Below are positions 3,468-25,124 of a stretch of 64,000 nt of DNA, piece by piece; positions within the stretch are counted from its first letter, which is position 1; every line of letters begins with the position of its first letter. A program made the translations under genes and the position numbers. The notes below the pieces were generated by a model. It was not told the DNA's origin. It saw only the letters and a program-made list of their open reading frames with translations, and ran no database searches. Source of the stretch: Desulfobacter vibrioformis DSM 8776 (GTDB lineage Bacteria > Desulfobacterota > Desulfobacteria > Desulfobacterales > Desulfobacteraceae); the NCBI RefSeq assembly GCF_000745975.1, contig NZ_JQKJ01000016.1, positions 1 to 64,000 of the forward strand. Reading direction: 5' to 3'.

Positions 3468-3629
3468 TGAATTTATTCTTGCGAAATAAATATGGATTGG
3501 TTATAGTTCTAAAAATTAGGCATGCATCCCCGGATCTATTTCTTAATTTCCGGGTCTTCTGAGGGACCCGGCTTCTACAAACGGGACAAATGCTGTGACG
3601 TTCACAAAAAAATTTTCATGCGAGGTAAT

Positions 3630-4169
3630 ATGACCGAAAAAACGCAGGTAAAAGAAGAAAAAAAGACTACCGCCGCCCCCAATCCGATTGATCCGACATC
3701 GGAGGAAATCACCAAACTTATTCGCAGACGTGCCAACTACGCTGCCGGCGTGGGACTTCTGGGATTACCTCTTATTAACTTTGCCGGAGTGACCACTATA
3801 CAAGTCGGGCTGGTTAAAAGCCTTTGTACCAAGTATGGCAAAACCTTCAGCGAAACTGCCGCTCGAAATATCATATCCGGCCTGCTTTCAAGCGGGGCTG
3901 TTTCGCTGGCAGCTCCAGCCGTCGGAGGCGTTGCTTTAGCCGTTCCCCTGGTGGGGCTTCCCCTGGCAATTGCTACAGCACCGGTGCTCAACGGGGTAAC
4001 AACCTACGCACTGGGGCATGTGTTTGCCACACATTTTGCCCAGGGGGGTTCCCTTGTCGGGACAGCGGCAGGTGAGCTTTCAGGCAGCTTTAAATCCGCG
4101 GTCAAGGTTGCCAGACAAAAAATGGGAAACGTGATTGCCGGAAAACAGGACGCACCTGAAGCAGCCTAG
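3630..4169 (+). CDS. DUF697-family membrane-associated protein
   Basis: A 179-residue protein starting at ATG 3630 behind GAGG; the open frame reaches back to 3522 without a better start. After a charged N terminus (MTEKTQVKEEKK) comes SEEITKLIRRRANYAAGVGLLGLPLINFAGVTTIQVGLVKSL, then two long Ala/Gly/Val-rich hydrophobic segments (roughly residues 90-140) and a basic C-terminal tail. This layout matches the DUF697 group, which includes the C-terminal part of YcjF and is often found next to GTPases. No GTPase is adjacent here. Likely located at the inner membrane; function unknown. Confidence 0.7.
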   Translation: MTEKTQVKEEKKTTAAPNPIDPTSEEITKLIRRRANYAAGVGLLGLPLINFAGVTTIQVGLVKSLCTKYGKTFSETAARNIISGLLSSGAVSLAAPAVGGVALAVPLVGLPLAIATAPVLNGVTTYALGHVFATHFAQGGSLVGTAAGELSGSFKSAVKVARQKMGNVIAGKQDAPEAA

Positions 4170-4516
4170 GCCAGCGTGTAGACCCCGGACTGTTTTTAAT
4201 TTGTCCCGAAATTTTAATTATACCTGATTTTTCACCAGGATCTGCGCATGGCAGGTTTTCCTATGATATTGCGCCATGGGTCGGAAATGGTGTTTGTGTA
4301 AATTAGGGCTGCTTTGCAAGGGACAACTGCGTAAATCCTGCTGGTTTAAATTTTCCCGGGTTGTATTCTTTATTCCCATTCACCCGGAAATCGCTGCCCG
4401 GATTCAGGAAGACAGGTTGCCGGCAATGGCCCCCCCCTGTGTGTGCCTGTATATTCTGTGCATAGGGGACAGGGCAGCATATTTATCTTTCTTGATTGTT
4501 GGGTAAACGGAAACCA
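4170..4516. other. Leader region upstream of the NRPS genes
   Basis: About 350 bases with no supported gene. A 76-codon open frame (4276-4506) lacks a ribosome binding site and looks random. Any promoter for the NRPS operon should lie here, but I do not see a clear -35/-10 pair or operator palindrome. Confidence 0.4.
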
Positions 4517-7500
4517 ATGACTTCCTGTGTTGACGATATGACATTCACGCTTCTGTCCGGAATCTCATTTCCGGAACAATTTTATACATGTGTGTTAAAT
4601 TACCCGGACCGGACGGCGGTCAAGGATGACCGGCGGCAGCTATCCTTTAAAGCGCTGGACCGGCACTCGTGCCTAATCGCCCGGCATCTAAGGGATTTGG
4701 GCCTGGGCCAAAGCACCGCTCCTGAAAATTACGACATCGGCTATCCGGAAAAGGCAAGGGTGTCCCCCTGGGTCATGGTATTGACCGGCAGAACCGTTGA
4801 TGTGGCCGTGGGCATTCTTTCGGTGCTCCGGGCAGGCGGGGCATATATCTGTGTGCCCGAAGAGGCCCCCCGGGCCTACATCCGCCAGATTGCACAAACA
4901 GCCAAAGTGACGGCAGTACTGACTTCTGGTTCTGGGAATCAAGGCCTGGAGGATATCCCCTGCATCGACCTTACCGATCCCCTTACCGATTGGGGGCTGC
5001 ACAACCAGGCGCTTTCAGACCCTTCCGGCGCATGGGACCGGTTTATTCCCCATCCACGGGATATGGCCACCGCCATTTTTACCTCCGGCTCAACCGGCCG
5101 GCCCAAGGGGGTGGTGCTGGAGCACCGGGCGATCTCGGCCATGCTGGCCTGGCAGAAATCATACATGGATCTTCCCCCCGGATCACACACCGCAGCCTTT
5201 GCGCCCTTGGGGTTTATTGCTGCGCCCTGGGAGCTGCTTTTCCCCCTGGCCTCGGGCATGACCCTGCATATTCTCAGTGAGCAGGTGCGGCGGGATCCCC
5301 TGGCCCTGGAAACCTATTTTGAACGTCACGGGATCCGGTACGTGTTTCTGTCTCCGGATATGGCGGAAATGTTCAGCCACAACTGCCACGGACAGTCCCT
5401 GAAATATGTCCGGGTGGCAGGCGGTCCCCTGCGCTCCTGTTCCCGCACCCCTTACGAAATTCTGTACTCCCTGGGCATGTCTGAAAACGGCGGTTCCGTC
5501 ACATTTTTATCCATCCAAAAGGCATATGAATCCGATATCCCCCTGGGCGGGGCATTCGGTCCTTCGCGCATCTATCTCCTGGATGATCAAAACAATATGG
5601 TCGGCCCGGGTGAGATAGGGAGAATGGCGGTGAGTTCCCCGTCCCTGGCCAGGGGATACCTGGGGATGCCTGATCAGACCCGGGACTGTTTCATCGCCAA
5701 TCCCTTTACCCATGTCCGGCCCTCGGTGTATACGCCCCCGTTGACAGATCCGGGCCCGGCCCACGGCATGGACACTTCTGCCTACAACCGTCTTTTTCTG
5801 TCCGGGGACCTGGCCCGCCTGGATGAAAACGGAATGCTGGTCCATTGCGGGCGCAGTGATTTTGTCGTAAAAATTCGGGGGATGCGGGTGGATCCGGGCC
5901 ATGTGGAAGCGGTATTGGCCAGCTGCGACGGCGTGCGGGAGTGTGTGGTGGCTGCCCAGAAAGCAGCGGATCAGGTGGTCCTATGGGCCTGGGCCGCTGG
6001 AGATAACCTGGACGCCCAGGCCCTGAAATCCCGGCTGGCAGCCCTTGTGCCCGATTACATGGTGCCGGACCGGATTAAAATTATGCAGGCCCTGCCACGG
6101 GGGGTCCACGGCAAAATTCAGCGCTCCCGGCTCCCACAAATCCCGGCGGAAAACATGGCATCTGCGGGCCTCTCTGATCCGGAGAATCCGGTGGCCGGCC
6201 ATGATCCCCGCCTGGAACGCCTGTGTGAAATTTTTGCAAAAAAACTACTGGTTTCCCGCGTCACCCCTTTGGACAATTTCTTTGCCCTGGGGGGGGATTC
6301 CCTGAAACTTGCAGGGCTACAGCTCATGCTGCGCAGCGAATTTTCGGTTGATCTGCCCTATGGGGAACTTTTTCGCAGACCCTGGCCCTCGGCAGTTCTT
6401 GAAATGATGGACCTGGCCGGAGATGGGGCCGGCATATCGCGTATCCCTGCTTCCCCGGCCCGGGACCGGTACCCCCTGACCATGCCCATGCGGCAGATGT
6501 ACCTGCTGTGGCGGCTGGGCCGGGATCCCCGGGCTTACGAGGTAGATACCTGCATGATGGTGGAAGGGGATGTGGACGGCCAGCGGCTGGAACAGGCCTT
6601 TGCCAGACTGGTGGCCCAGGAGCCTCTCCTGCGCTCCAGATTCATTGAAAAGGACGGGGAGCCGTTCTGGGTGATTGACGATAATGATAGCATGCCCTAT
6701 GATTTTGTGTCCCTTCGTGCGCCGGATCCGGAACAGGCCCGCCTGCTGTGGGAGAAACTCAGCCTTGCCCGGCCGGCCATAGATCTGTCCCGGTCTCCGC
6801 TCTTTTACGTGGTCTGTATCGAAATCAATTCCCGTTGCAGTTTTCTGGGACTGACAACCCATCATATCCTCGTGGATGCGGCGTCGTCCCGCCTTCTGAT
6901 GGATGCCTGGTGGGACTTGTACACGGTTGGAAAAATCCATGATCCCGGAGGCGGTCAGACCGTTCCAATGACGGATTATGTGCTTTGGGACCGTGCCCGG
7001 CAGGAGAGCCAGGGACTTAAAACATCTGAACGCTTCTGGCAGGAACGGTTAAATCCCCTTCCGCCGCCCCTGGATCTCTCGGGCGCGGCCTCTCCCAGAC
7101 CCTCTGCCCTGACAGGGGGCAGTGCCGTTGCCCGGGTGGTCCTGGGAAAAGAGGACCGGGCCGCCCTGGCAAAACTAGCCGATGTTTACCAGGTAAGCGT
7201 ATTCCAAACACTGCTGGCGGTCTGGGCCGCATTTATTTCCCGCCAGGCAGCCGTTACCCAAGGGTTTGACGAAATCGTGATGGGCGTGCCCTTTGCCGGA
7301 AGGGACCATCCCGCACTCCAGTTCTGCAAGGGGATGTTTGTAAGGACACTGCCCCTGCGTCTTCAGCCCACACCGGACGGATCCCAGCCATTTTCAGACT
7401 GGCTCCGCCAGGTCCGGGAAAGCTTTCTGGATGCCTGGGAACACCAGGCCTGCTCCCTTGAGCGGATTGTGCAGCTGGTCAAGCCCCCCCGGATTCCGGG

Positions 7501-8143
7501 GCGCAGTCCCCTGTTCGACGTGATGATCAACCGGCTTCCCCAGCCCCGGCCCTTCCCGGTGTTCAGGTCAACGGACCAGGAAGTCTCCGCCAGGATCGTT
7601 CCCGGGTTCAACCGTCCCACGGCCATCTTCGACATCATCCTGGAGATCCGGGAGGGCCGGGATCAGATTTTTCTGGAACTGACCTATGCCAGAGATCTGT
7701 TCCAGCCCGGTCTGATGAAAATCTGGGCAGACGCAGTGGCTGCAATTGTCAGAACAGCCTGCGCCGATCCCGGCAGGCCTCTGGAAGAACTGCCCTGGCC
7801 TTCGGACCGGATACTGGCTGAATTTAAACCGGCAGAGAGCGATGACGATCCGCATATCCCGCCGTTTTCCTATGATGCAGACTGGGCCGGGGATGATATG
7901 GCCACACAGGCCCTGATCACTGCATGGCAGGAGGTTCTAGGCGTTTCCATGGCCGGGCCGGCGGACGATTTCTTTGCGCTGGGGGGGGATTCCATTACTG
8001 CCATGCGCCTGGAGGCGGAACTTTTCAAGGCAGGATGGTACCTGCCGGCCACCACAATCTATGAGCAGGCCCGGCTGGGTGAGTTGATACAAATGATGGA
8101 ACCTGCAAACGCTTTTGATGACGAGGACGATGAATTTGCCTGA
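4517..8143 (+). CDS. Non-ribosomal peptide synthetase, A-T-C-T (no second A domain)
   Basis: About 1208 residues. Order by motif: adenylation domain (residues about 20-540; A3 FTSGSTGRPKG at 188, A7 SGDLARLDE, A8 KIRGMRVDPGHVE, A10 HGKIQR), carrier protein with phosphopantetheine site LGGDSL (Ser595), condensation domain (about 650-1080; HHILVD at 782-787), second carrier protein with LGGDSI (Ser1159). No A domain stands between the C domain and the last carrier, so this second module must be charged in trans; the free-standing A protein at 15651 is the obvious candidate. In the first A domain the A4 core reads GFIAAPWEL: the Asp that normally holds the amino group is Ile, suggesting a starter that is not an ordinary alpha-amino acid. 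The start is uncertain (TTG 4496 or ATG 4517, no strong RBS). It overlaps the next gene. Confidence 0.92.
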   Translation: MTSCVDDMTFTLLSGISFPEQFYTCVLNYPDRTAVKDDRRQLSFKALDRHSCLIARHLRDLGLGQSTAPENYDIGYPEKARVSPWVMVLTGRTVDVAVGILSVLRAGGAYICVPEEAPRAYIRQIAQTAKVTAVLTSGSGNQGLEDIPCIDLTDPLTDWGLHNQALSDPSGAWDRFIPHPRDMATAIFTSGSTGRPKGVVLEHRAISAMLAWQKSYMDLPPGSHTAAFAPLGFIAAPWELLFPLASGMTLHILSEQVRRDPLALETYFERHGIRYVFLSPDMAEMFSHNCHGQSLKYVRVAGGPLRSCSRTPYEILYSLGMSENGGSVTFLSIQKAYESDIPLGGAFGPSRIYLLDDQNNMVGPGEIGRMAVSSPSLARGYLGMPDQTRDCFIANPFTHVRPSVYTPPLTDPGPAHGMDTSAYNRLFLSGDLARLDENGMLVHCGRSDFVVKIRGMRVDPGHVEAVLASCDGVRECVVAAQKAADQVVLWAWAAGDNLDAQALKSRLAALVPDYMVPDRIKIMQALPRGVHGKIQRSRLPQIPAENMASAGLSDPENPVAGHDPRLERLCEIFAKKLLVSRVTPLDNFFALGGDSLKLAGLQLMLRSEFSVDLPYGELFRRPWPSAVLEMMDLAGDGAGISRIPASPARDRYPLTMPMRQMYLLWRLGRDPRAYEVDTCMMVEGDVDGQRLEQAFARLVAQEPLLRSRFIEKDGEPFWVIDDNDSMPYDFVSLRAPDPEQARLLWEKLSLARPAIDLSRSPLFYVVCIEINSRCSFLGLTTHHILVDAASSRLLMDAWWDLYTVGKIHDPGGGQTVPMTDYVLWDRARQESQGLKTSERFWQERLNPLPPPLDLSGAASPRPSALTGGSAVARVVLGKEDRAALAKLADVYQVSVFQTLLAVWAAFISRQAAVTQGFDEIVMGVPFAGRDHPALQFCKGMFVRTLPLRLQPTPDGSQPFSDWLRQVRESFLDAWEHQACSLERIVQLVKPPRIPGRSPLFDVMINRLPQPRPFPVFRSTDQEVSARIVPGFNRPTAIFDIILEIREGRDQIFLELTYARDLFQPGLMKIWADAVAAIVRTACADPGRPLEELPWPSDRILAEFKPAESDDDPHIPPFSYDADWAGDDMATQALITAWQEVLGVSMAGPADDFFALGGDSITAMRLEAELFKAGWYLPATTIYEQARLGELIQMMEPANAFDDEDDEFA

Positions 8144-11100
8144 TATCCCCGGCCGCTTCTCCCTGACCCCCATGCAGGAGGGGATGATCTTTGATTCCAT
8201 GGCATCGACATCGTCTGCGGCATCCGGGCACAAGTCCGGTCCCAGATACCTCTCACTGATCCATTTCAGGCTTCCCCGTCCCTGTGATCCTGGGGCCCTT
8301 GGCCGGCGCTGGCATGGTCTTGCCCAAATCCATCCGGCCCTGCGCACCCGGTTTTTCCTTGATGACAACGGAAACCTGACCCAGGCCTTTCCCAAAGACC
8401 ATCTTCCCGGGTTCAGCTGCCAGGATATCTCCGGTCGCAGTGCCGAAGATCAGGACCGGGCCATTGACGATTATCTTGAAGCGGTCCGCACAACAGGGAT
8501 AGACCCCTTTGCCGGTCCCCTGTGCCGGCTGGTCCTGTTTGACAGAGGCGGCGGGCAGGGTGCGGGTATCCGGGATATGGGAATCATTTTCCACCACGCC
8601 GTGCTGGACGGCTGGAGCCTGTCCATCCTGATGACGCAGCTTCTGGCCCAGAAGGCGCCCGGGGACAAAGGGGTGCCCTTTAGCCGGTATCTCCGGTTCC
8701 TGTCAAAGCGGGACATTCAGTCGGATCTTGCCTATTGGCAGGCCAGACTTGACGGCGTTGGGGCTGACTGCCGGCTCCCCGGCCAGGTTCCAGACCCAAT
8801 TTCGGATCAAGGAACGGATACCATGCCATCGGACCCCGCACACCACCGGTTTTCTCTGGGGGAAAGCACGGGTCTGTACGGTCTGGCCCGGCAACTGCGT
8901 ATCTCTCCGGGGCGCCTGCTCCAGGCCTTGTGGGCCCTACTGCTGTGCCGGTACAATGAAGGGCAGGCCGTGTTCGGCCATGTGATCACCGGCCGCATGG
9001 GAACAGTGCCCGGGGTGATGGGGATGGTGGGTATGTGTGTGAATACCATTCCGGCCCGGTTGGACCTGCCCGAAGAAAAGTCCTTTTCCACCTGGATCAG
9101 GGAATGGAATACCCAGGTATCTGCGGATGAACGCCACGGATTTACCTCCCCCACCGCGTTGAACAAGATAGTACCCAACTATGCTGATCTTCTCTTTGTG
9201 GCTGATCCTGCCCCCCCGGCAGACAGCCCTGAGTGGGTCCGGGGATATGGGGAGGCTGTGGCAGGATTTACTGCTGGTTTCGAACTGGGAGAAACGGTTC
9301 TGGCCTGCTTTTCCTATGATACCCGCAAATACCCGGTCCGGGCTGTGGCACGCACGGCAGCCCATTTCTGCAACATCCTGGCCGCTGTCATTAAGAACCC
9401 GAATATCGGTCTGAAAGATATCTCTTTTCTTCCGGATCAAGAGGCGGCCCTGCTGCTGGCCAGCGATCCGCCCTTGCCGGCGGCCGGTAACACCCTGGCA
9501 ACGCTCTGGCGGACGGCGGCGGCGATCCATTCAGGGAAAACCGCCCTGGTCTGGGGCAGCACCCGCATGACCTACGCAGCGCTGGCAGGCCGTGTGGACG
9601 CCCTGGCTTCTGCCCTGGCCGGCCAGGGCGTGAAGCCGGGTGACCTGGTGGCTGTTAAGCTTAACCGGTCCCACCGCATCGCCATTGCGGTCCTGGCCGT
9701 ACTCCAGGCCGGAGCAGCCTACCTGCCCCTTGCCCCGGAGTGGCCGGCCGACCGGATCAGGCAGATTCTGGCCGATACCCATCCGGCCCTGGTGCTGGAC
9801 GACGACACCCTTGACCGGCTCGGACATGTGCCGGCCGCCGGGAAAAAAGAGACGGCATCCCCATCTCCCTGTCCGGAAAATCCGGCTTATGTCATCATGA
9901 CCTCCGGCACCACAGGACGCCCCAAGGGCGTGGTGGTGGAACACCGGAATGCCGTGGCGTTCTGCACCTGGGCCATGGACCGGTACCAGTGGGGGCCGGG
10001 CATGAGCGCCGCCATCCAGACCGAGTTCGCCTATGACGTGGCCATCTGGGGGCTCTATCCGGCCCTGTTCAGCGGCGGCACCGTGCATATCCTGGAACAG
10101 GAGGTTCGGCATACCCTTCACCGGATAAGGGATTACCTGGTCCGGGAAAATATTACCCACATGGATCTGCCCGTTGCCATGGCCGAGGAGTTTATGGACA
10201 TGTTCCCCGGCACCAAGGCCCCCCCTGCCCTGCGCTTCCTGGCCACAGGCGGGGATGCCCTTGGCCGCTATACCAAGGTGCCTTACACCGTTGTCAACGA
10301 GTACGGCCCCACTGAATGCACGGTAACCTGTACCTCATATACCCTGTCCCGGAACATGACGCCCATCCCCATCGGCAGGCCCCTTCCCGGAATGCGGGCT
10401 CTTATTCTGGACCGGATGGGCCGGCTCGCCCCCCTGGGCGTGCCGGGAGAACTCTGTTTTTCAGGGGTCCAGGTGGTCCGGGGATATCTGGGAGACGCCC
10501 GGCTCACCGCTGAAAAATTCACAGATAATCCCTTTTTTGATCCGGACCGGGACGATCCTGAACACAGACGCCTTTACTGCACCGGTGACCTGGCCTGCTG
10601 GCAGGCGGCTCCGGACCATGACCGGGGCGACCTGATCTTTCTGGGCCGCATGGACCACCAGGTCAAAGTAAGGGGATTTCGGGTGGAACTGGGAGAAATT
10701 GAAAGCGTGCTCCAATCCCATCCCGGGATACACAGGGCTGTGGCAGCACTGCTGGCCCCGGCATCCGGCAGCGAAAAGCGTCTGACCGCATGGGTGGTCT
10801 GCCCCGCCAGCAAGTTCCGGAAAGAGGATATCCTTGCCTTTCTCTCGGAGAAACTGCCGTCCCATATGCGCCCTGCACTCATCCGGATAGACGCGCTGCC
10901 GCTGACCCCCGGCGGCAAGATAGACCTTCGTGCCCTTCCTGTGCCGGATGGCCGGGCCCCAGACCTTCCGGCCGCGCCTCCTGATACGCCGGCCGAAAAA
11001 ATGCTCATGGCTGTCCTGGCAGATCTGCTGCCCGGAATGGATGCCAATGTACTGCTGGGCTTTCTGGCGGCGGGCGGGGATTCCATCAACGCCATCCGTC

Positions 11101-14100
11101 TGGCTGCCCGGCTGGAAAGTCTGGGGTGGCGGGTTGCCCTCAGGGATATCATGGCCAGCCCCACCCTCAGGGCCCTGGCGGAAAAGATGAAGGCCCCGGA
11201 TGCCAACGAAGCCGAAGACAAACCCGTACCCCTCCCCCTTCCCGATACCGGATTTTCCAGGACCATGGAAGCAGCCTGGGGCAAGGACACAATCATCCTT
11301 CCGCCCACGCCTACCCAGATAATGCTGCTGACCCAGGTCGCCATGTCCGGGCCGGACACCTATGCCGTGACAGGACATTACAGGCTGCCGGACACGGCAC
11401 CGTCCCCGGAAGAGATCCGCAACCGACTGGTATCGGCCATGGAACGCCACGATATCCTGCGGGCCGGCTTTGTCCTGGATGGGGACGGAGGATACTGGAT
11501 GGTCGTCCCGCCCAGGATGCAAATCCCCTTTGTTTATCATGATCATGCGCACCCGGAGGATATCAGATGCCGGCTCCTGGACCGGCTGGCAGAAATGAAA
11601 GCCGGACTGGACCCCTCTAAGCCCCCCCTGGTCCGCCTGGAAATTTTCAGAATGGCCGAGGGACACCTGGAGATGCTGCTTCACTACCACCACCTGATCC
11701 TGGACGGCTGGAGCCTGGGTATCCTGTTTGACGAACTTTTTGGCCGTGTGCCCGGGCCGCCTGGGCCGGTTCTCTGTTTCGGGGAATATCTTCAATGGAT
11801 TCACGCCCGGATTTCCCGGCATGGGGGGGGCAAAGACAAAACATCCGGCAAGATGATTTCTGCCGGTTTCTGGGATGAAAAATTTCCCGCCCATGCCCGG
11901 CCGGCAGACCTGCCCTTGTGGCCGCCCCAGGAAGCTGCCAAGGCAGATCCTGCTGGTTCAGACCTGCCCCAAAGCCTGCCGCTGCTTTCCTCTGGTGAAT
12001 TCATGGACTGCAAGGCGGCTGCCCGGAAGGCAGGGGTCACGCCTGCGGCATTTTTCATGGCCATGTGGATGCTGGTTCTGACGCGCTATAACGACTGCCC
12101 GGAAGAGGGGCCGATGATGCTGGGATTTGTATCTGCCGGCCGGCCGCCCCTGCCCGGGATTGAGTCCCTGGTGGGCATGTGCGCCAGGACCCTCCCGCTG
12201 GCCATTCCCCTGGCCGGCGATCAATCTTTTACAGGCTTTGCCTTGGCAGTCCAGGATGAGATGGATCAGGTCCAGGCCCGGTATGACGTACCTGACACCA
12301 TGGCCAGCCGTCTGCCCCGCCATCTCTTTTCTTTTGAAGCCGTTGGAGAGGATAACGGGCATTTTCCCATGCCCTTATCTGCCCACGGCAGCGACGGCTA
12401 CGACCTTGTGAGCCTGTTCCGGGACGGCGGGGCCGATTCTGCGGCTGGATTCCGCTTCCATTCCCAAGCCGTACCGCCTGCCCTGGCTGACAGGCTCAGG
12501 GTCCAGTTCCGGGCCATGGCCAGACGGGTGCGGAAGACCCCGGACCTGCCTGCCGGAGTCATCTCCCGACTCCCGGCGGAAGAGATCCGGCAGCTTACAG
12601 AACAATTCGGCCGGGGCAAACATCTGGCCGTTGATTTTCCCACGGCGGTGCATGCCTTCCGCGCCGCTGCCAAACGATATCCGGACCTGCCGGCCCTGGC
12701 CCGTGACACGGTCTGCCTGACTTACAGTCAGCTTGATGACCGGACCGATGCCCTGGCCCGCCGGTTGGCAGCCATGGGGGCGAGCCGGGGCTGCGTGGTC
12801 GGGGCAGTCATGTCCCGGAGCCTTGCCGGGGGGGCCGTACCCCTGGGGATCATGAAAGCCGGAGCCGCTTATCTGCCCCTGGCACCGGATTGGCCGGTTT
12901 CCCGAATCAACGACATGCTGGCGTTCACCAATGCCTGCGCCCTGGTGACGGACTGCCTGGCACCTGCGGATATTTCCCTTCCGGCCCTGATCCTGACAGA
13001 AAATTTTGAAGATCTGGAACCCGAAGGAGACGCCCCGCTTTTACCGGAGCCATCCCCGGCGGATCTGGCCTATGTCATCTGTACCTCCGGCACCACCGGT
13101 CGCCCCAAGGCAACGGCAGTACCCCACAGGGCCCTGGCGAACCAGGTCGCATGGACCCTGGACAGATTCGGGCCGTACGCCCATGACCGGATCCTTCACA
13201 CCATGGCCTTCTCATTTGATCCCTCTTTATGGCTGCTCTTCCCCTTCTGGGCCGGCGGTGCCTGCGTGCACATGGCAGCCGGGGAACTGCTCGTGGACAG
13301 CGCCGCCCTTATGGCAGCCCTCCACCGCTTTGGCATCACCCGTTTAGCCCTGCCCACCCGGGTGGGGGATCTGCTTTTTGACCATGCCCGAAGGGCCTCG
13401 GCCGGAAAGGATACGGGGCGCAGCGGATTTCCCCGGTCCCTGGTCTCCCTGACTGTGGGCGGTGAATCGCCCCAAAGGCTTATGCCGGTGGATTTTGAAG
13501 TGATTAACGCCTACGGCCCAACAGAGGCCTGTATTCAGGTTACCACCTGTCCCGTGTCAACGCTTTCCGGTGCCAGCCGCATCATCGGGCGCCCTTTGGC
13601 CAATGTCCAGGTCTATGTGGTGGACCCAGGGCTTGGGCTCTGTCCGCTGGGGGTGGCGGGGGAACTCTGCATTTCCGGCCCCCAGCTGGCCACAGGATAC
13701 CTGGGCATGCCCGGGGAGACAAGCCAGGCCTTTCTGGACAATCCATTTTCTAACCATCCGGAATTTAATCTGATTTACAGAACCGGGGACCGGGTTCGCT
13801 GGCTGCCGGACGGAAATCTGGAATTTTTAGGACGCACAGACGACCAGGTCAAAATCCGGGGGTACCGGATTGAAATTGAAGAGGTCCGCCAGGTATTGAT
13901 CGCCGCGCCTGGGATCCGGGATGCCCATGTGCTGATTCAAAACGACCGGACCGGTCAGCCCAGTCGTCTGGATGCCTATTATATTCCCCAGGATTCTCCC
14001 GCCACCCGGGACCAGATCAAGGCGTTTATGGGATCCCGCCTGCCGGCGTATATGGTGCCGTCCTCATTTACAGCGGTTCGGCAATGGCCGTTAAACGCCC

Positions 14101-15647
14101 ACGGCAAGCTGGACCGGAACCGCCTGCCGTCACCGCTTCTTGAAACCGTGTCAGGCACCCCGCCCCAGACCGAGGCGGAAAAAATCCTGGCCCGTTCCTG
14201 GGAAGCGGTTCTGGGCATTTCAAACATCTGCCGGGAAGACAGCTTCTTTGACCTGGGGGGGCATTCCCTGCAACTGCTCAAGGTCATGGGGCACATGGCC
14301 GGCACCCATTTTATTGAAATTCAGGATTTTTTTAAAACCCCGAAACTCTCAGATCTGGCAGCCCGCATGAGACCGGTAGAACCGGGCGCGGCCCATGGGG
14401 ATAACGGGAGGCCAGACCCAGTTGTGCATACAGGACATCACCAGGACGCCGGGGAAGACCCGCATTACCAGGCCCTTATGGCTGGTGCGGCCCGTCTTTC
14501 AAAAGCCAGCCCCCTCCCGCTGCACAGAATTATGATCACCGGGGCCACAGGCTATCTGGGCGCCTTTCTTTTAAAAGCGTACCAGGACCGGACAAGGGCT
14601 ACAATTCTGGTACCGGTAAGGGGCGGAAAAGATCCTTGGCAGCGGCTGCATACAAGCCTTGCCTTTTATTTCGGCAAGGCGGACGCTGAACGTATGGTGG
14701 ACCGAAAACGCATCATTCCTGTCAGGGCGGACCTGGGCCGTTCCCGGGATGTGGATGCCCTGGAAACCTGTCTTCCCCACCTGGATATGATTATTCACTC
14801 GGCAGCCGCCGTCAACCACTACGGCAGCCCGGAACTGCTGACTGCGGCCAATGTGACGGCCACAGAACATCTGCTGGAACTGGCCGCCCGGTATGGACAC
14901 TGCCGGTTTGCCCATATCTCCACCCTGAGTGCGGTCAACCTGCCGGGGTTTTCAGAACTTACCCAGGATGCGGGTCCACCTGCCCGGAACCATTACTCCC
15001 GGACAAAGCAGGCAGCGGAAAAACGGGTGCTCAGGGCCAGGGATAACGGTCTGGACTGCCTGATCTTCCGTACCGGAAACCTGATCCTTGACACGGTAAA
15101 TCACCGGTTTCCCCAGGCCGCCCCAAGCAACATGTTTCTGCGCCTGGCCCGGATGATCGCAAAAACAGGTCTGGCAATGGACGGGACCGGCAAGATGGGG
15201 CCGAACTTTGTGGACCAGGCTGCCCAGGCCATCTGCCTCCTTGCCGGTCAGACAGATCCCGGACCGGGGATTTTCCACATCGACAACCCCCACCAGATTG
15301 CCATATCCCAAATCCTTTCCATGGCCCTGCCCAGAAAAGAGGCCATTGTCCGGCTTCCGGTTACAGCCCTGAAAGCGCAACTGCGGATCATGGGCCAGGC
15401 CGGGCCAGGTGACCGGGGAGAGGCTGCCCGGGAGTACCTGGCATGGATAGGCCAGCAGGAAAGGGAGAAGGCAGAAGGCGAAATTTTTGGCGGTGAGATA
15501 AAAATGGACTGGACCCTTGCCCTGCTGGCGAATCTGGGATTTGTCTGGCCCAAAATGACCCGGGAACTGGCCAAAGCCGTCCTGGACCGGGCACTGACCC
15601 TGGACCAGGGTTTTGAAACGCATCATACTGGTGAAAGGAGTGGATAA
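8118..15647 (+). CDS. Non-ribosomal peptide synthetase, C-A-T-C-A-T-R (reductive release)
   Basis: About 2509 residues. Order: C (HHAVLDG near 160), A (TSGTTGRPKG near 596; A4 FAYDVAIWG with the normal Asp near 641; NEYGPTE; KVRGFRVELGE), carrier AGGDSI (Ser near 990), C (HHLILDG near 1192), A (TSGTTGRPKA; A4 FSFDPSLW with Asp near 1702; NAYGPTE; KIRGYRIE), carrier LGGHSL (Ser near 2051), and a C-terminal thioester reductase (from about 2135; TGATGYLG, later NHYSRTK). The reductase, an NAD(P)H-dependent short-chain-type domain, normally frees the chain as an aldehyde or alcohol; no thioesterase is present. My by-eye pocket readings are DVWDAGEVTK and DPWATGAIQK, which I cannot assign safely. 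The gene overlaps the previous one by about 26 bases; TTG 8115, ATG 8118 and ATG 8130 are all possible starts. Confidence 0.93.
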   Translation: MTRTMNLPDIPGRFSLTPMQEGMIFDSMASTSSAASGHKSGPRYLSLIHFRLPRPCDPGALGRRWHGLAQIHPALRTRFFLDDNGNLTQAFPKDHLPGFSCQDISGRSAEDQDRAIDDYLEAVRTTGIDPFAGPLCRLVLFDRGGGQGAGIRDMGIIFHHAVLDGWSLSILMTQLLAQKAPGDKGVPFSRYLRFLSKRDIQSDLAYWQARLDGVGADCRLPGQVPDPISDQGTDTMPSDPAHHRFSLGESTGLYGLARQLRISPGRLLQALWALLLCRYNEGQAVFGHVITGRMGTVPGVMGMVGMCVNTIPARLDLPEEKSFSTWIREWNTQVSADERHGFTSPTALNKIVPNYADLLFVADPAPPADSPEWVRGYGEAVAGFTAGFELGETVLACFSYDTRKYPVRAVARTAAHFCNILAAVIKNPNIGLKDISFLPDQEAALLLASDPPLPAAGNTLATLWRTAAAIHSGKTALVWGSTRMTYAALAGRVDALASALAGQGVKPGDLVAVKLNRSHRIAIAVLAVLQAGAAYLPLAPEWPADRIRQILADTHPALVLDDDTLDRLGHVPAAGKKETASPSPCPENPAYVIMTSGTTGRPKGVVVEHRNAVAFCTWAMDRYQWGPGMSAAIQTEFAYDVAIWGLYPALFSGGTVHILEQEVRHTLHRIRDYLVRENITHMDLPVAMAEEFMDMFPGTKAPPALRFLATGGDALGRYTKVPYTVVNEYGPTECTVTCTSYTLSRNMTPIPIGRPLPGMRALILDRMGRLAPLGVPGELCFSGVQVVRGYLGDARLTAEKFTDNPFFDPDRDDPEHRRLYCTGDLACWQAAPDHDRGDLIFLGRMDHQVKVRGFRVELGEIESVLQSHPGIHRAVAALLAPASGSEKRLTAWVVCPASKFRKEDILAFLSEKLPSHMRPALIRIDALPLTPGGKIDLRALPVPDGRAPDLPAAPPDTPAEKMLMAVLADLLPGMDANVLLGFLAAGGDSINAIRLAARLESLGWRVALRDIMASPTLRALAEKMKAPDANEAEDKPVPLPLPDTGFSRTMEAAWGKDTIILPPTPTQIMLLTQVAMSGPDTYAVTGHYRLPDTAPSPEEIRNRLVSAMERHDILRAGFVLDGDGGYWMVVPPRMQIPFVYHDHAHPEDIRCRLLDRLAEMKAGLDPSKPPLVRLEIFRMAEGHLEMLLHYHHLILDGWSLGILFDELFGRVPGPPGPVLCFGEYLQWIHARISRHGGGKDKTSGKMISAGFWDEKFPAHARPADLPLWPPQEAAKADPAGSDLPQSLPLLSSGEFMDCKAAARKAGVTPAAFFMAMWMLVLTRYNDCPEEGPMMLGFVSAGRPPLPGIESLVGMCARTLPLAIPLAGDQSFTGFALAVQDEMDQVQARYDVPDTMASRLPRHLFSFEAVGEDNGHFPMPLSAHGSDGYDLVSLFRDGGADSAAGFRFHSQAVPPALADRLRVQFRAMARRVRKTPDLPAGVISRLPAEEIRQLTEQFGRGKHLAVDFPTAVHAFRAAAKRYPDLPALARDTVCLTYSQLDDRTDALARRLAAMGASRGCVVGAVMSRSLAGGAVPLGIMKAGAAYLPLAPDWPVSRINDMLAFTNACALVTDCLAPADISLPALILTENFEDLEPEGDAPLLPEPSPADLAYVICTSGTTGRPKATAVPHRALANQVAWTLDRFGPYAHDRILHTMAFSFDPSLWLLFPFWAGGACVHMAAGELLVDSAALMAALHRFGITRLALPTRVGDLLFDHARRASAGKDTGRSGFPRSLVSLTVGGESPQRLMPVDFEVINAYGPTEACIQVTTCPVSTLSGASRIIGRPLANVQVYVVDPGLGLCPLGVAGELCISGPQLATGYLGMPGETSQAFLDNPFSNHPEFNLIYRTGDRVRWLPDGNLEFLGRTDDQVKIRGYRIEIEEVRQVLIAAPGIRDAHVLIQNDRTGQPSRLDAYYIPQDSPATRDQIKAFMGSRLPAYMVPSSFTAVRQWPLNAHGKLDRNRLPSPLLETVSGTPPQTEAEKILARSWEAVLGISNICREDSFFDLGGHSLQLLKVMGHMAGTHFIEIQDFFKTPKLSDLAARMRPVEPGAAHGDNGRPDPVVHTGHHQDAGEDPHYQALMAGAARLSKASPLPLHRIMITGATGYLGAFLLKAYQDRTRATILVPVRGGKDPWQRLHTSLAFYFGKADAERMVDRKRIIPVRADLGRSRDVDALETCLPHLDMIIHSAAAVNHYGSPELLTAANVTATEHLLELAARYGHCRFAHISTLSAVNLPGFSELTQDAGPPARNHYSRTKQAAEKRVLRARDNGLDCLIFRTGNLILDTVNHRFPQAAPSNMFLRLARMIAKTGLAMDGTGKMGPNFVDQAAQAICLLAGQTDPGPGIFHIDNPHQIAISQILSMALPRKEAIVRLPVTALKAQLRIMGQAGPGDRGEAAREYLAWIGQQEREKAEGEIFGGEIKMDWTLALLANLGFVWPKMTRELAKAVLDRALTLDQGFETHHTGERSG

Positions 15648-15650
15648 CAT

Positions 15651-17204
15651 ATGGAACACGCAACCTATACCCGGATGCTGGGTGACCTGGCCGGACAATG
15701 CCCCGATGCCCCGGCCCTTTGCTACAAGGGTGAGACTGCACAGAAACTGACCTTTCGGGAATTGGATCTTTTCAGCAGCCTGGCAGCGGAGAAACTGATC
15801 TCAGCCGGCTGCACAAAGGGGATGGCCATCCCGGTGGTGCTGAACCGGGGACTGGACTGCGTTGTCTGGGCCCTGGGGGTGATAAAGACCGGGGCCACGG
15901 CCGTGCAGCTGGCCCCGGACGTCCCCCTGAACCGAGCCAGGTATATCTTCGAAGATACGGGCGCCCCTTTTATCCTGACCCACCAGGACCTGGCACACCG
16001 GTTCCCGGGCTGCCCCTGCGAGACGGTGGCAGCGGATTTATGGCAATCGGAAACATGGCAGACCGGCGCACGCCAGTCCGAATCCCTGCGCCAGGCCCAG
16101 GCAGCCCGGGAAAATCTGTTGTCCGGGGACACCCCCATGCTGGTTTACTATACCTCCGGCACCACGGGCAATCCCAAGGGGGTGGTTTTCACCCATGCCA
16201 ATGTCCTGGGATTTGCCCGGCGGCACAACGCATTTAACAATATCACGGCAGACACCCGGGTGGCGGCCTTTGCCACGGTCTCATTTGACGCCTTTGTGAT
16301 GGACCTTTATGCGCCCCTGGCCGCAGGGGCCCGGGTCTTTCTGCTGGGAGAAGAGGAGCGCATCTCCCTTGTGGCCCTTCACCGGTACTATATGCGCCAT
16401 AAGCTCCATCTCTCCTTTTTGACCACCCGGGTGGGGGAGGCGTATATGCAGGCCTTTGACAATCCCCATTTACGCCGCCTGCTCACCGGCGGGGAGGTGC
16501 TCCGTGAATTTGTCCCCAGAAGTTATGAGGTGTTCAATATCTACGGTCCCACCGAGACCACGGCCTATGTCACGGCATTTCCCATTACCCGGCCCCTGTC
16601 CGATTATCCCCTGGGACAGGCCCTGCCCGGCATGAAGGTGATGCTGCTGGATGAAAACCTTGCCCCCTGTCCGCCGGGCAGGACCGGTGAGATCTGCATC
16701 TCCGGAGACCAGGTCAGTGCCGGGTACCTGAACCAGCCCCTGAAGACCGCCCAGGGGTTTACGGCCAATCCTTTGTATGACCCGGGAAAAGAGGCCCCTG
16801 CCTTCAGCCGCATGTACCGGACCGGGGACCTGGGGCTGCTGGGCCAGGACGGACAGATCTATTTCAGGGGCAGAAAGGATCACCAGATCAAAATCAGGGG
16901 CTGCCGTATCGAAACCATTGAGGTGGAGACAGCCCTGCTGGCCCACCCGGAAGTCAGGCAGGCCCATGTCCGGCCCTTTACCCGCGGGAACGGGGAAACA
17001 GGCCTGGCCGCCTATGTGGTCAGGTGTGCCGGACAGACAGGCACCGACGCCTTTTTTCACAGCATTAAGGCGTATTTGAAAGATACCCTGCCGGCCCAGA
17101 TGATCCCGGGGCGCATGGCAGAGCTGCCCAGCCTCCCCCTGAACGCCAACGGCAAGGTGGACGGGGCAGCCCTGGCCGACCCTGGAACCCTGGGGCGGCT
17201 CTAA
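15651..17204 (+). CDS. Free-standing NRPS adenylation domain protein
   Basis: A 517-residue single A domain that activates an amino acid as aminoacyl-AMP and loads it on a carrier protein. Motifs: YYTSGTTGNPKGV (near 167), SFDAFVMDLY with the substrate Asp at 213, NIYGPTETT, YRTGDLGLL, DHQIKIRGCRIE, and the terminal NGKVDG Lys. There is no carrier or condensation domain. A by-eye pocket reading, DAMFLGIAYK, resembles codes for aliphatic residues such as valine or isoleucine; this is inference. ATG 15651 follows the stop of the big NRPS by three bases, with AAAGGAG lying inside that gene, so the two are translationally linked. Its likely partner is the A-less C-T module of the first synthetase. 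Confidence 0.9.
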   Translation: MEHATYTRMLGDLAGQCPDAPALCYKGETAQKLTFRELDLFSSLAAEKLISAGCTKGMAIPVVLNRGLDCVVWALGVIKTGATAVQLAPDVPLNRARYIFEDTGAPFILTHQDLAHRFPGCPCETVAADLWQSETWQTGARQSESLRQAQAARENLLSGDTPMLVYYTSGTTGNPKGVVFTHANVLGFARRHNAFNNITADTRVAAFATVSFDAFVMDLYAPLAAGARVFLLGEEERISLVALHRYYMRHKLHLSFLTTRVGEAYMQAFDNPHLRRLLTGGEVLREFVPRSYEVFNIYGPTETTAYVTAFPITRPLSDYPLGQALPGMKVMLLDENLAPCPPGRTGEICISGDQVSAGYLNQPLKTAQGFTANPLYDPGKEAPAFSRMYRTGDLGLLGQDGQIYFRGRKDHQIKIRGCRIETIEVETALLAHPEVRQAHVRPFTRGNGETGLAAYVVRCAGQTGTDAFFHSIKAYLKDTLPAQMIPGRMAELPSLPLNANGKVDGAALADPGTLGRL

Positions 17205-17281
17205 CCCGGGAGAGGTGGGCTTTAGCTTCGCCTATTTAGCCAGAAAGATGGGGAAAAAATAAGAAAAGGAAAAATAAATAG

Positions 17282-18487
17282 ATGGAATTGACACCGATTT
17301 ACGATAACCAGCCGGATATTTACACCCTGAAAGGATTTGCGCCCAGGATGATGAGGACAAAAGATCTCAGGGCCCTCGGGGTAAGCGTTACACCGGATGA
17401 GGCAACCATGGATCTGTTCACCGCGGGATGCCGCTCATTCATGGCCCGCTGGGAGGCGCGTACCGCCATTCCCAGGCCCCGGGTGGACCTGGGTCCGATT
17501 GATCTTGGCAACGACCTGGAAATCCACAACTACACCTCACACTGTCCCACCCTTACCTACGAGGTGAGTCCGGTGCAGGGCTGCCAGGTGGGCTGTCTCT
17601 ACTGCCTGGTCACCGACGGGGTCCATGAGCATACCCTTAGTGCCTATGAAAATTACGACCAGCTCCTGGCACCCATTCTGGAAAAACACCGGCACGAGGA
17701 ACACTACTATTACTATTCGGCAAAGACCGAGGCCCTTCAGGAGCCCACCCTCCAGACCGGCATCGCCCACAGGATACTCAACACCTTTATCCGCCACTAT
17801 GAAAGGTATCCGGATTCCAAGGCAAGGCTTTTCATCGCCTCCAAAGCCGGGATCAAACACCTGATGTATGCCCGGGACGGTGTGCGGATTATCGACCTTT
17901 TTGAACAGCTTAAAGGAAAGATGCAGTTCAACACCAGCATCTCCATTATGCCCGATTCCCTGCGCCTTTTGCTTGAACCTTTTGCAGCGCCGGTTCCGGA
18001 ACGGATGGCTGCGGTCCGGGCCTGCCAGGAGCGGGGCATCCTGTCCGAATCCGCCCTGGTTCAGCCCATTTTTCCCTCATATCTGAACGACGAAGTGATG
18101 TCCGAATTTTTCGGGAGACTCCACCGGAACGGCATTGTCAATTTCAAACCCGAGTTCCTCACCGTATCCCCGGCCACCCTGGCCTGGATCGGGCAGCTGC
18201 TGGAACATTTTGATCCGGACCAGGCCCGGCGCCTCTACACCCTCTATCTGGCACCGGAGAACCAGGACCATAAAAAACAACGGCAGCGCACGGCACCGGA
18301 ACGCGACTTCTGCATGGAACAGTTCAAACGATTCCAGCAGGCAGGGCGCGATTACGGCATCTCCATGTCCATCTGCTACTGGGTGCGCAAGGCCCTTAAC
18401 ATTGACATCGACATGATCCCCATCATCAATGAAAACGGGTACCAGTGCCTGGGGTACCAACGCAAGCTGTTTGACAGCCCCTTTTAG
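17282..18487 (+). CDS. Radical SAM protein, spore-photoproduct-lyase-like layout
   Basis: A 401-residue cytoplasmic enzyme. The 4Fe-4S/S-adenosylmethionine motif is GCQVGCLYC, with Cys101, Cys105 and Cys108 (CX3CX2C). The preceding HCPTLTYEVSPVQGC segment and the later core (ARLFIASKAGIKHLM; KMQFNTSISIMPDSLRLLLEP) recall spore photoproduct lyase-type radical SAM proteins, although no sporulation genes are nearby. It ends the plus-strand NRPS operon (78 bases after the A protein, RBS AAAAGGAAA), so a tailoring role on the peptide or on a precursor amino acid is plausible. Substrate unknown. No SPASM-type extra cluster-binding Cys series is obvious. A DNA-repair role by chance location is the alternative. 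Confidence 0.75.
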   Translation: MELTPIYDNQPDIYTLKGFAPRMMRTKDLRALGVSVTPDEATMDLFTAGCRSFMARWEARTAIPRPRVDLGPIDLGNDLEIHNYTSHCPTLTYEVSPVQGCQVGCLYCLVTDGVHEHTLSAYENYDQLLAPILEKHRHEEHYYYYSAKTEALQEPTLQTGIAHRILNTFIRHYERYPDSKARLFIASKAGIKHLMYARDGVRIIDLFEQLKGKMQFNTSISIMPDSLRLLLEPFAAPVPERMAAVRACQERGILSESALVQPIFPSYLNDEVMSEFFGRLHRNGIVNFKPEFLTVSPATLAWIGQLLEHFDPDQARRLYTLYLAPENQDHKKQRQRTAPERDFCMEQFKRFQQAGRDYGISMSICYWVRKALNIDIDMIPIINENGYQCLGYQRKLFDSPF

Positions 18488-18500
18488 ACGGATAGGGGCA

Positions 18501-18683
18501 CTAGGCGGTTTTCTTTATAAAAATCTTGTTAAAGGCCCGGTTCAAAAGGATATAGATCATTGGCGGGACAGGGGTGAAAAACAGTGAGAAGAAAAAATTC
18601 CCCCAGAACCCGAGAAAGGTTTTCCTGCCAAGAATACCCACGATAAAAGAAAGAACCAAATATAGAATCACCATAGGCGGCAT
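18501..18683 (-). CDS. Small membrane protein
   Basis: Sixty residues, ATG at 18681-18683 behind AAAAGGAA. Two hydrophobic segments (VILYLVLSFIVGILG and a second centred on FFFSLFFTPVPPMIYILL) joined by the loop GRKTFLGFWGN. The GR--GFWG-FF-SLF-TP pattern recurs in tiny hypothetical membrane proteins of many bacteria. It lies at the convergence of the NRPS operon and the exporter operon, 13 bases from the radical-SAM stop codon. Function unknown. Confidence 0.6.
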   Translation of the reverse strand: MPPMVILYLVLSFIVGILGRKTFLGFWGNFFFSLFFTPVPPMIYILLNRAFNKIFIKKTA

Positions 18684-18713
18684 AAGCTAATTCCTTTTCA
18701 AGTTAAAATCTGG

Positions 18714-19700
18714 TCAGCCGCCCTTATTTCCAGGGAGGCTATTCTGTTTTTTTTCAGGAATAATATACAGGATACCCCAGTGATTGGAAGGCACTGCCGC
18801 ATAAAATATTTTTACGGTTTCCCCGGTGGCAGGTGATATCACCTTGGCCGTACCGGACTTGCCCTTCTGGAGATCACGTCCGACCCTGCGCAATTCAGGC
18901 AGCTTTAAAAAGACCGCCAAAGAAAACAGGGTGTGGTTAACCTCCCATTCTTCCCGGGGAGCGCTGATCACAGTGCCGTCTTCCGAAAGCAGCATGACAA
19001 ACCCGTTGTTGGGCAGTTTTTTCTCTGTATTGAAAAAGCGGGTCAGCCAGTCAATGGATACATCCACGGTCACCACCCCGGTAAAGGTGTCTGCAACACC
19101 GTCAAAAAAGGAGAAGGGTACAGCATAGGTGGTCATAAAGACATCGCCGCCGCCTTCATCAAAATAGGGATCCACCCACACCGGCCGGTTAAGTATTTTC
19201 GGCAATAGATACCAGTCTTTGTTGAAATAGTCATATCCGGGCTGATCCAGGGCACTGAACCTGATCTTGCCGTCCTTTTTGCAGGCGTACAATGGCCAGG
19301 AGAGGCTCTTTTCCCATGATAGACCGGGGGCAAATGCCACGGATGTGCCGAAAATTTCCGAATTGTTCAGCATGATGGCTTCCAGAACGATTTTAATCTC
19401 TTCTGTCCGGAGTCGCTGTAACTCAAGGATTGTCGCAACTTCCCTGGGAATTTTCTGGATGGACTTTACAAAAAGATCAATCCGGTCCGTATCTTTTTTC
19501 AGCATCTGCCGGATCTGGCTGCCTGACATGGTTATGGTGTCCGGATTGCCGGTCCGTTTCATTATGCTGGTGGCGGCAAATGACACGGCAATGACGAAAA
19601 TACCAATTGCAAGAATTGCGTCAAGCCTTGTGAGAAGACGTTTTCCCAGGTTGGATTGAGGTTTCTGGGGGCTGTTATCAGCGGTTGACATAGAACGCAT
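18714..19700 (-). CDS. Cache-domain membrane protein without an output domain
   Basis: A 328-residue protein. One N-terminal membrane helix (ILAIGIFVIAVSFAATSIM) is followed by a periplasmic double-Cache-type sensor: SVAFAPGLSWEKS, DYFNKDWYLLP, PVWVDPYFDEGGGDVFMTTYAVPF, and a distal half with FVMLLSEDGTVIS and AVPSNHWGILYIIP. Such domains bind small ligands at the front of chemoreceptors, kinases and diguanylate cyclases, but here the chain stops right after the sensor, so no cytoplasmic signalling output exists. The start at 19700 has AAGGTGAG upstream and overlaps the end of the binding-protein gene by 23 bases. It may sense or bind the same ligand as that neighbour. Confidence 0.75.
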   Translation of the reverse strand: MRSMSTADNSPQKPQSNLGKRLLTRLDAILAIGIFVIAVSFAATSIMKRTGNPDTITMSGSQIRQMLKKDTDRIDLFVKSIQKIPREVATILELQRLRTEEIKIVLEAIMLNNSEIFGTSVAFAPGLSWEKSLSWPLYACKKDGKIRFSALDQPGYDYFNKDWYLLPKILNRPVWVDPYFDEGGGDVFMTTYAVPFSFFDGVADTFTGVVTVDVSIDWLTRFFNTEKKLPNNGFVMLLSEDGTVISAPREEWEVNHTLFSLAVFLKLPELRRVGRDLQKGKSGTAKVISPATGETVKIFYAAVPSNHWGILYIIPEKKQNSLPGNKGG

Positions 19701-20670: not shown

Positions 20671-20671
20671 A

Positions 20672-21520: not shown

Positions 21521-21541
21521 CTGATAATCCCGATTAAGTTC

Positions 21542-24884: not shown

Positions 24885-25124
24885 CCCCATCTCCCTGACG
24901 CATATATCCGGCCCGTGAGCCCCATATTGAATATCATTCCTTTTCGGTTCATCCCTGGTCAAGCAGTCCGGCCAAAACAACCGGCCAAAACAACCAGATA
25001 AAACAATAGGATAGCCTAAACCCCTCAACCATTATTCAACAGCCATTTGTTAATCTATAAACGCTTATAATTACAATAATATTACGATTAGAGAAAGAAC
25101 TTTTTTATGAAAGCGATCGAAATT
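24885..25124. other. Intergenic region, probable exporter-operon promoter
   Basis: 240 bases between the exporter start and the cold-shock gene terminator. It contains a direct repeat (CCGGCCAAAACAACCGG..CCAAAACAACCAG around 24969-24998) and then an AT-rich block. No convincing promoter hexamers were singled out. Confidence 0.3.

Follow-up and report, generated by a model that had tools for sequence, protein, structure and literature searches.

How is a carrier charged when the module that holds it has no adenylation (A) domain of its own? The question is posed by a nonribosomal peptide synthetase (NRPS) locus at positions 4517-18487 of a 64,000-nucleotide stretch of Desulfobacter vibrioformis DSM 8776 (contig NZ_JQKJ01000016.1), the whole of which we call the window. 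Here four open frames, all on the plus strand, encode two synthetases (NRPS1 and NRPS2), a free-standing A protein and a radical S-adenosylmethionine (SAM) protein, and the second carrier of NRPS1, T2, has no A domain. We consider it likely that the locus encodes a split, reductively released NRPS in which the starter lacks an alpha-amino group and the free A protein loads T2 in trans. The features of the locus are listed below (C, condensation domain; T, carrier; R, terminal reductase; G419, a second genome of the genus, in a single contig).

4517..8143, plus strand: NRPS1, A-T-C-T by Pfam, 1208 aa from an ATG common to G419
4595..6115, plus strand: NRPS1 A domain (N1A), pocket IAWFRASGS, Arg299, without Asp235
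6215..6388, plus strand: T1, first NRPS1 carrier, GGDS
6461..7807, plus strand: NRPS1 C domain, HHILVDA
7907..8095, plus strand: T2, A-less NRPS1 carrier, GGDS
8115..15647, plus strand: NRPS2, C-A-T-C-A-T-R, start at TTG 8115 or ATG 8118/8130
9513..10937, plus strand: N2A1, first NRPS2 A domain, pocket DVWDAGEVT
12660..14126, plus strand: N2A2, second NRPS2 A domain, pocket DPWATGAIQ
14535..15227, plus strand: R domain of NRPS2, NAD_binding_4, TGATGY and YSRTK
15651..17204, plus strand: free-standing A protein without a carrier, 517 aa, pocket DAMFLGIAY, candidate in-trans loader of T2
17282..18487, plus strand: radical SAM protein, CxxxCxxC (C101, C105, C108)

Domain order and the module without an A domain

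A sequence-only reading of this stretch had proposed NRPS1 as A-T-C-T with an A-less second carrier, NRPS2 as C-A-T-C-A-T-R, and one carrier-less A protein at 15651-17204 in the same operon, and each part of that outline is borne out. Along NRPS1, Pfam places AMP-binding, AMP-binding_C, PP-binding, Condensation and PP-binding in that order, with the carriers and C domain positioned by genome-wide searches and the domain boundaries taken from Pfam. NRPS2 contains two Condensation domains, two AMP-binding domains, two PP-binding stretches and an NAD_binding_4 match of 98.1 bits that carries the R motifs, and the free A protein consists of AMP-binding and AMP-binding_C with no carrier. The start of NRPS2 overlaps the end of NRPS1, and the NRPS2 stop is followed after 3 nt by the start of the free A gene, in the window and G419 alike. 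The proposed count of four carriers and four A domains, one of them in trans, is correct, and the layout is found in two further genomes: G419 and the metagenome-assembled genome (MAG) MI.B8_8, assigned to Planctomycetaceae (G480).

By Pfam boundaries, the C domain and T2 of NRPS1 are separated by only 99 nt (33 aa), too short a stretch for an A domain. A hidden A domain beside the last NRPS1 carrier, one of the findings that the sequence-only reading had named as its refutation, was looked for and is ruled out by this gap. Nine C domains were found in the genome and that of NRPS1 alone has no A domain behind it, so the free A protein has one obvious partner. The assembly comprises 86 contigs and is about 95% complete, and an additional A-less module could therefore be missing from it. 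Other A-less partners for the free A protein were sought on two further NRPS-bearing contigs and rejected, as the three C domains on C4 and the three on C5 each precede an A domain; the first carrier on C5 (145947-146147) has no traced loader, which limits this exclusion.

The locus appears intact. Motifs A3, A7, A8 and A10 are kept in all four A domains of the window (A7 of the free A protein was read from the protein itself, the script pattern having caught an earlier stretch), the four carriers keep the serine of GG(D/H)S, the C domains keep HHxxxD, and the R domain keeps TGATGY and YxxxK. With its C, A and T motifs and terminal reductase, the locus reads as a type I modular NRPS. T2 retains GGDS in all three copies (window, G419 and G480), and T1 of G480 reads GGNS. 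In the same three copies the NRPS1 C domain has HHxxxDA, not HHxxxDG, a variant that may fit an unusual donor such as an acyl starter. Comparison of the window with G419 by the Nei-Gojobori method (our own script) gave dN/dS values of 0.20 for NRPS1, 0.25 for NRPS2, 0.20 for the free A gene and 0.11 for the radical SAM gene. For T2 alone the value is 0.19: the layout, including the A-less carrier, is under purifying selection.

Adenylation pockets and the starter unit

We read the substrate pockets in the GrsA frame from an alignment of 36 A domains, with the fragment checked against 1AMU. Asp235 binds the alpha-amino group of the substrate. It is present in 33 of the 36 domains and absent only from the three N1A copies, where Ile replaces it; Arg at 299 is likewise confined to these copies. 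Their pocket is identical at 9/9 positions in the window, G419 and G480, and the N1A domain itself is 45% identical between the window and G480. Measured against the amino-acid adenylation model TIGR01733 (cut-off 317.4), N1A falls under the cut-off at 251.2 bits and the free A protein exceeds it at 335.1. Since Asp235 is missing, the pocket is invariant and N1A scores under the cut-off, N1A probably activates a fixed starter other than an alpha-amino acid. The four-module count of the sequence-only reading stands with a qualification: without Asp235 in N1A, the chain is probably an acyl cap followed by three amino acids and not a chain of four.

The remaining pockets keep fewer positions between the window and G480 (free A 5/9, N2A1 6/9, N2A2 4/9, against 9/9 for N1A). 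The free A pocket is DAMFLGIAY in the window and G419 and DAWFAGHIY in G480; that of N2A1 is DVWDAGEVT, with acidic residues at 278 and 322, in the first two and DAADSGEVT in the third; and the N2A2 pockets read DPWATGAIQ, DPWVFGAIQ and DPWVCGLVN in the window, G419 and G480, respectively. From these patterns, not from a prediction tool, we would guess that the substrate of the free A protein is hydrophobic and that of N2A1, with its acidic 278 and 322, basic.

Distribution, orthology and the island

The search with NRPS1 covered the 86 genomes of the host's family and matched 84 of them at E<=0.001, as A domains and acyl ligases do; scoring at most the best 8 candidates per genome left an ortholog in the host genome and G419 only (80% identity; next match 29%). 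The free A protein (at most the best 17 candidates per genome scored) was found at E<=1e-70 in 2 of the 86, exactly those with the NRPS1 ortholog. The radical SAM gene is present in 2 of 19 genomes of the genus, again the host and G419. Alignment with G419 is confined to 3591..25107 (strand not assigned), as four segments whose DNA identity is 81-85%, separated by short stretches without alignment, and the flanks do not align within the 31 kb of G419 that was fetched. G+C content is 0.574 in this segment and 0.493 in the rest of the window, compared with 0.536 and 0.45-0.50 in G419. Together, the island-only alignment and the G+C contrast suggest that 3591-25107 is an acquired island.

Beyond the family, a scan of 84,980 species genomes for the radical SAM protein returned 20 loci; the scan is limited by the peptide patterns used and may omit records close to the host genome. 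One of these loci (L041) lies in the Planctomycetaceae MAG and encodes a C-A-T-R synthetase, DUF697-like and SPFH proteins, an ATP-binding cassette (ABC) exporter, a radical SAM protein (64%) and a free A protein. On another contig of the same genome (G480) we found an 1185-aa A-T-C-T protein that is 41% identical to residues 21-1202 of NRPS1 and is followed by C and A frames. To judge by these sequences, a genome that is assigned to a different phylum has the layout too, and this recurrence at such a distance gives it the look of a functional, uncharacterised variant within a known type of pathway.

A tree of the 36 A domains contains four starred groups, each composed of the window, G419 and G480 copies of one A domain; two of the G480 domains carried a warning of deviating residue composition, and a 361-residue piece stood for the free A protein of G480. 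The free A protein of the window is 29% identical to N1A and 34-35% identical to the A domains of NRPS2. Because it forms a starred group of its own that includes all three genomes, it appears to be an old, separate part of the system and no recent duplicate.

Searches for the radical SAM protein at E<=0.001 matched 22 of 395 genomes sampled from the phylum and 31 of 294 sampled from the Planctomycetota. Except in the host genome and G480, these matches reached at most 36 bits and were set aside as distant superfamily members; G419 was not among the phylum-sample matches and surfaced in the family search. No plasmid-borne copy was detected at 1e-5 in a tblastn search of 72,556 plasmid records.

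A proposed pathway and its alternatives

From the computed domain order, orthology, intact motifs, selection and co-occurrence, we infer what each catalytic step does, which substrates are used, how the radical SAM protein takes part and what is made. N1A, which lacks Asp235, would activate a starter acid without an alpha-amino group and transfer it to T1. The free A protein, on the strength of the architecture and its conservation, would activate an amino acid, probably hydrophobic, and load it in trans onto T2, after which the NRPS1 C domain would link the starter to the T2 residue. NRPS2 would add a probably basic residue and then one more, and its R domain would reduce the thioester to give an N-acyl tripeptide as the aldehyde, as the alcohol, or in a form that arises by cyclisation of the aldehyde. 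A building block or the chain would be modified by the radical SAM protein, and two TIGR01194 half-exporters would export the product. We infer an N-acyl tripeptide released reductively; in more general terms, the locus probably makes a short modified peptide.

In-trans loading of T2 by the free A protein is the best explanation of these sequences, because the parts are under purifying selection, the layout recurs in other genomes and the A domains are orthologous. For the earlier claim of an in-trans A domain filling a C-T module, then, the architecture and its recurrence hold, while the loading itself is argued from comparison. Several observations weigh against this reading. The A domain of another module could charge T2; the co-occurrence within the family is that of at most the best 8 and best 17 candidates per genome; and the free A pocket is conserved at just 5/9 positions between the window and G480. 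In G480, the free A gene is interrupted by one in-frame TAG and runs in the opposite direction to the radical SAM gene, NRPS2 is broken into two frames on two contigs, and the tight coupling of free A to NRPS2 is not seen, so that this third copy may be decayed or badly assembled. A search for an MbtH gene found none, and some A domains need MbtH. Finally, most relatives of the radical SAM protein do not adjoin NRPS genes, which means that its link to an assembly line is not obligatory.

The alternatives differ in which step they change. If T2 were charged by the A domain of another module, such as N2A1 or N2A2, the free A protein would be released for other work, for example activation of the substrate of the radical SAM enzyme, whose gene it adjoins. 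An A-less module is reported to be loaded in this manner in capreomycin biosynthesis, where CmnA-A1 charges CmnI (PMC12400406). We regard such an arrangement here as improbable, given that exactly one free A protein and one A-less module occur together, the gene order and the 3-nt gap being kept, and that the pair is found in 2 of the 86 genomes of the family and once more in G480. Still less probable, to the point of being barely credible, is that T2 is a skipped relic and the acyl-T1 chain passes straight to NRPS2, making the product one residue shorter. On general grounds a carrier could outlast the loss of its cis A domain, but GGDS in all three copies, a dN/dS of 0.19 and an A-less layout kept in G480 at 41% identity speak against a relic. 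The last alternative touches the starter only and is compatible with in-trans loading of T2: the unusual pocket of N1A may accommodate an amino acid, either an ordinary one or a beta-amino acid, making the product a tetrapeptide instead of an acyl tripeptide. Pocket codes are merely predictive, and TIGR01733 does match N1A, though under its cut-off. Against this, Asp235 is replaced by Ile and residue 299 is Arg in all three orthologs, whereas the other 33 A domains all keep Asp235, and we hold an amino-acid starter to be unlikely, albeit the most plausible of the three.

A radical SAM partner with a predicted spore photoproduct lyase fold

The protein encoded at 17282-18487 has only sub-threshold family matches (Pfam Radical_SAM 17.5 bits, cut-off 29.5), and a sequence search for relatives of solved structure gave none at E<=1. 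Its three cysteines, C101, C105 and C108, are invariant in 19/19 aligned sequences, namely the window and 18 of the 20 loci (the alignment left out L044, L048 and the G419 copy). The structural model has a predicted local distance difference test score (pLDDT) of 86.3, and its best VIA-align match is spore photoproduct lyase (SPL; Z 19.6, root-mean-square deviation 3.4 over 280 residues, 15-16% identity), with the next fold family at Z 14.1. In plain Foldseek, other radical SAM enzymes took the first ranks, and no SPL was listed among the best 50 matches. The model thus indicates a radical SAM protein with the SPL fold; we do not file it as an SPL, the likeness being at the level of the fold. 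SPL belongs to sporulation, whereas the gene in the window sits in an NRPS operon.

The surroundings of this gene in the scanned loci include the following.

L042, L043, L045-L058 and L060 (Fibrobacter, Prevotella, Bacteroidales): three-gene unit of radical SAM, ATP-grasp-like and WbqC-family proteins
L059:6516-12218 (Acholeplasma sp. OttesenSCG-928-E16, a mycoplasma relative): C-A-T-thioesterase (TE) NRPS beside the same radical SAM family

Genes for a protein of about 406 aa and then a WbqC-family protein come after the radical SAM gene in 17 of the 20 loci, the WbqC-family protein identified by Pfam in L042 and by tblastn with the L042 protein elsewhere. The contig of L044 ends directly after the radical SAM gene, and L041 and L059 carry NRPS genes in place of the ATP-grasp/WbqC unit. 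The 406-aa protein has no Pfam match in L042, but a model built from an alignment of 7 of the 17 neighbours (pLDDT 68.3) resembles an ATP-grasp ligase, with Cp1B (Z 16.9) and glutathione synthetases (16.3) tied. In the synthesis of E-64, Cp1B couples epoxysuccinate with amino acids, hydrophobic ones by preference (PMC12568646). It is the nearest fold, in that tie, of the ATP-grasp-like neighbour, a gene that the window does not have. L059 also encodes a CaiB-type CoA-transferase whose best NCBIfam match, succinate-glutarate CoA-transferase, is under the cut-off, and there are ABC-like matches nearby. By their record titles, many of the 17 three-gene loci are ruminant-derived; some titles are silent.

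An enzyme that forms amides, or probably does so, is encoded near the radical SAM gene in 19 of 20 loci. This gene-neighbourhood argument is the basis of a broader and decidedly speculative proposal, to which we give little credence: that the SPL-fold protein makes or modifies a small acid, or the first amide, as a warhead around which unrelated amide-forming machines have gathered. Such a system would be associated with anaerobes, and its acid would be carboxylic, perhaps dicarboxylic. On that proposal, the window and the Planctomycetaceae MAG would use an NRPS, with N1A taking the acid and the free A protein the next, hydrophobic residue; Acholeplasma would use its single C-A-T-TE module and the CaiB-type CoA-transferase; and Fibrobacter and Bacteroidales would use the ATP-grasp ligase. 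Short peptides with a cap would result, protease inhibitors in the manner of E-64 and leupeptin, and that of the window would bear a C-terminal aldehyde. Literature searches pairing WbqC with ATP-grasp found nothing, most subscription papers lying outside them; the match listed for WbqC and radical SAM concerns iron deficiency in Bacteroidetes, and that for SPL, NRPS and radical SAM concerns marine SAM metabolites.

Relation to known assembly lines

Loading of a module by an A domain on another protein has precedents. SyrB1/SyrE of syringomycin is one, and trans-complementation has been proposed or reported for albicidin, ramoplanin and enduracidin (section 4.1 of PMC8949500); loading of an A-less module by the A domain of another module is also reported, and experimental validation of in-trans loading in bacteria is described as still limited (PMC12400406). 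The syringomycin line likewise has a main-line module without an A domain whose monomer is activated by a separate protein (PMC8949500). SyrB1, however, is A-T and SyrC shuttles the residue, whereas the protein of the window is A only. No SyrC-type shuttle was recognised among the annotated genes of the island, and no search aimed at shuttles was made. Leinamycin LnmQ/LnmP offers another parallel, in which an A-only protein loads a carrier in trans; none of the papers listed in a literature search contains LnmQ. Capreomycin CmnI, loaded from CmnA-A1 on another protein, is likewise a module without an A domain (PMC12400406), but its loader belongs to another module and the window has a free A protein. 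For albicidin, ramoplanin and enduracidin, stand-alone proteins supply a missing or dead A function (PMC8949500); these are A-T didomains with extra regions, in contrast to the 517-aa, A-only protein of the window.

The sequence-only reading had called an in-trans A domain filling a C-T module uncommon, which goes too far, as in-trans A domains are an established kind (PMC8949500 and PMC12400406). Its remark that NRPS loci are rarely described from strictly anaerobic Desulfobacterota was similarly too strong as an argument: C domains occur at E<=1e-20 in 37 of 86 family genomes, and in 18 of 42 among those of good quality. With precedents for in-trans A domains and C domains this widespread, arguments from rarity are too strong. 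Matches to equivalogs of named NRPSs (aureusimine, myxochelin and enterobactin) were far under their cut-offs among the best 25 matches per protein. The titles listed in a literature search on NRPSs of sulfate reducers and anaerobes, which left most subscription papers outside, name no characterised NRPS product of a sulfate reducer. Nor did the literature searches made turn up a system that joins reductive release and an SPL-fold radical SAM protein with a starter pocket of the non-amino-acid kind and a carrier-less A protein as loader of an internal C-T module.

Genomes assigned to two phyla retain this combination of features. The system is of interest as a compact case (about 21.5 kb) in which a small set of domains, each expressed on its own, would serve to test in-trans A loading. 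It also brings an NRPS together with a radical SAM enzyme of the SPL fold that is uncharacterised and strongly conserved, and most relatives of which adjoin an ATP-grasp-like gene in Fibrobacter and Bacteroidales. Should that link be true, work on the NRPS or on the ATP-grasp system could reveal one enzyme reaction, which would point to an unknown class of anaerobe metabolite.

Flanking genes and other NRPS lines

The span 4517-18487 holds the radical SAM gene as well as the NRPS genes, and the exporter genes lie past it; the sequence-only reading mentions neither the one nor the others. The genes flanking the locus are as follows.

3522..4169, plus strand: DUF697-like protein, 26.9 bits against a Pfam cut-off of 27.7, start common to G419 at ~3630
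18714..19700, minus strand: dCache-type sensor or ligand-binding protein, kept in G419
19678..20820, minus strand: NMT1/SsuA-like substrate-binding protein, kept in G419
20672..21520, minus strand: SPFH/Band 7 protein, kept in G419, relative in L041
21542..23212, minus strand: ABC half-exporter, TIGR01194 (cyclic peptide export), 326.9 bits, cut-off 286.2
23181..25028, minus strand: ABC half-exporter, TIGR01194, 290.5 bits, cut-off 286.2, relative in L041

All of the minus-strand genes at 18714-25028 are conserved in G419. DUF697-like and SPFH proteins accompany the NRPS in the window, in G419 and in L041 (L041:4486-5064 and 5388-6068), and possible roles for them are export, membrane protection or immunity. 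The SsuA/NMT1-like and dCache proteins might sense or retrieve the product; L041 has no relative of either at 1e-6. Two genes of the phosphopantetheinyl transferase (PPTase) family lie elsewhere in the genome, and dsrA is present, in line with a sulfate reducer. A scan for promoter-like signals gave 12 against 6.3 expected and one for terminator-like signals 20 against 17.1 expected, and neither enters our conclusions.

The genome encodes two further lines, both hybrids with polyketide synthase (PKS) domains (KS, ketosynthase; AT, acyltransferase; DH, dehydratase; KR, ketoreductase).

C4:204243-218915 (L081): hybrid of KS-AT-T followed by three C-A-T modules, 4227 aa, closely preceded by an AMP-ligase and a small carrier
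C5:about 145900-166700 (L082 = 148000-167900): PKS/NRPS hybrid with AT, DH, KR and T, three C and three A domains

The three A domains of the C5 hybrid share the Cys-type pocket DLYNLSLIW, and we take this line to resemble one for a thiazoline-type metallophore, such as that of yersiniabactin.

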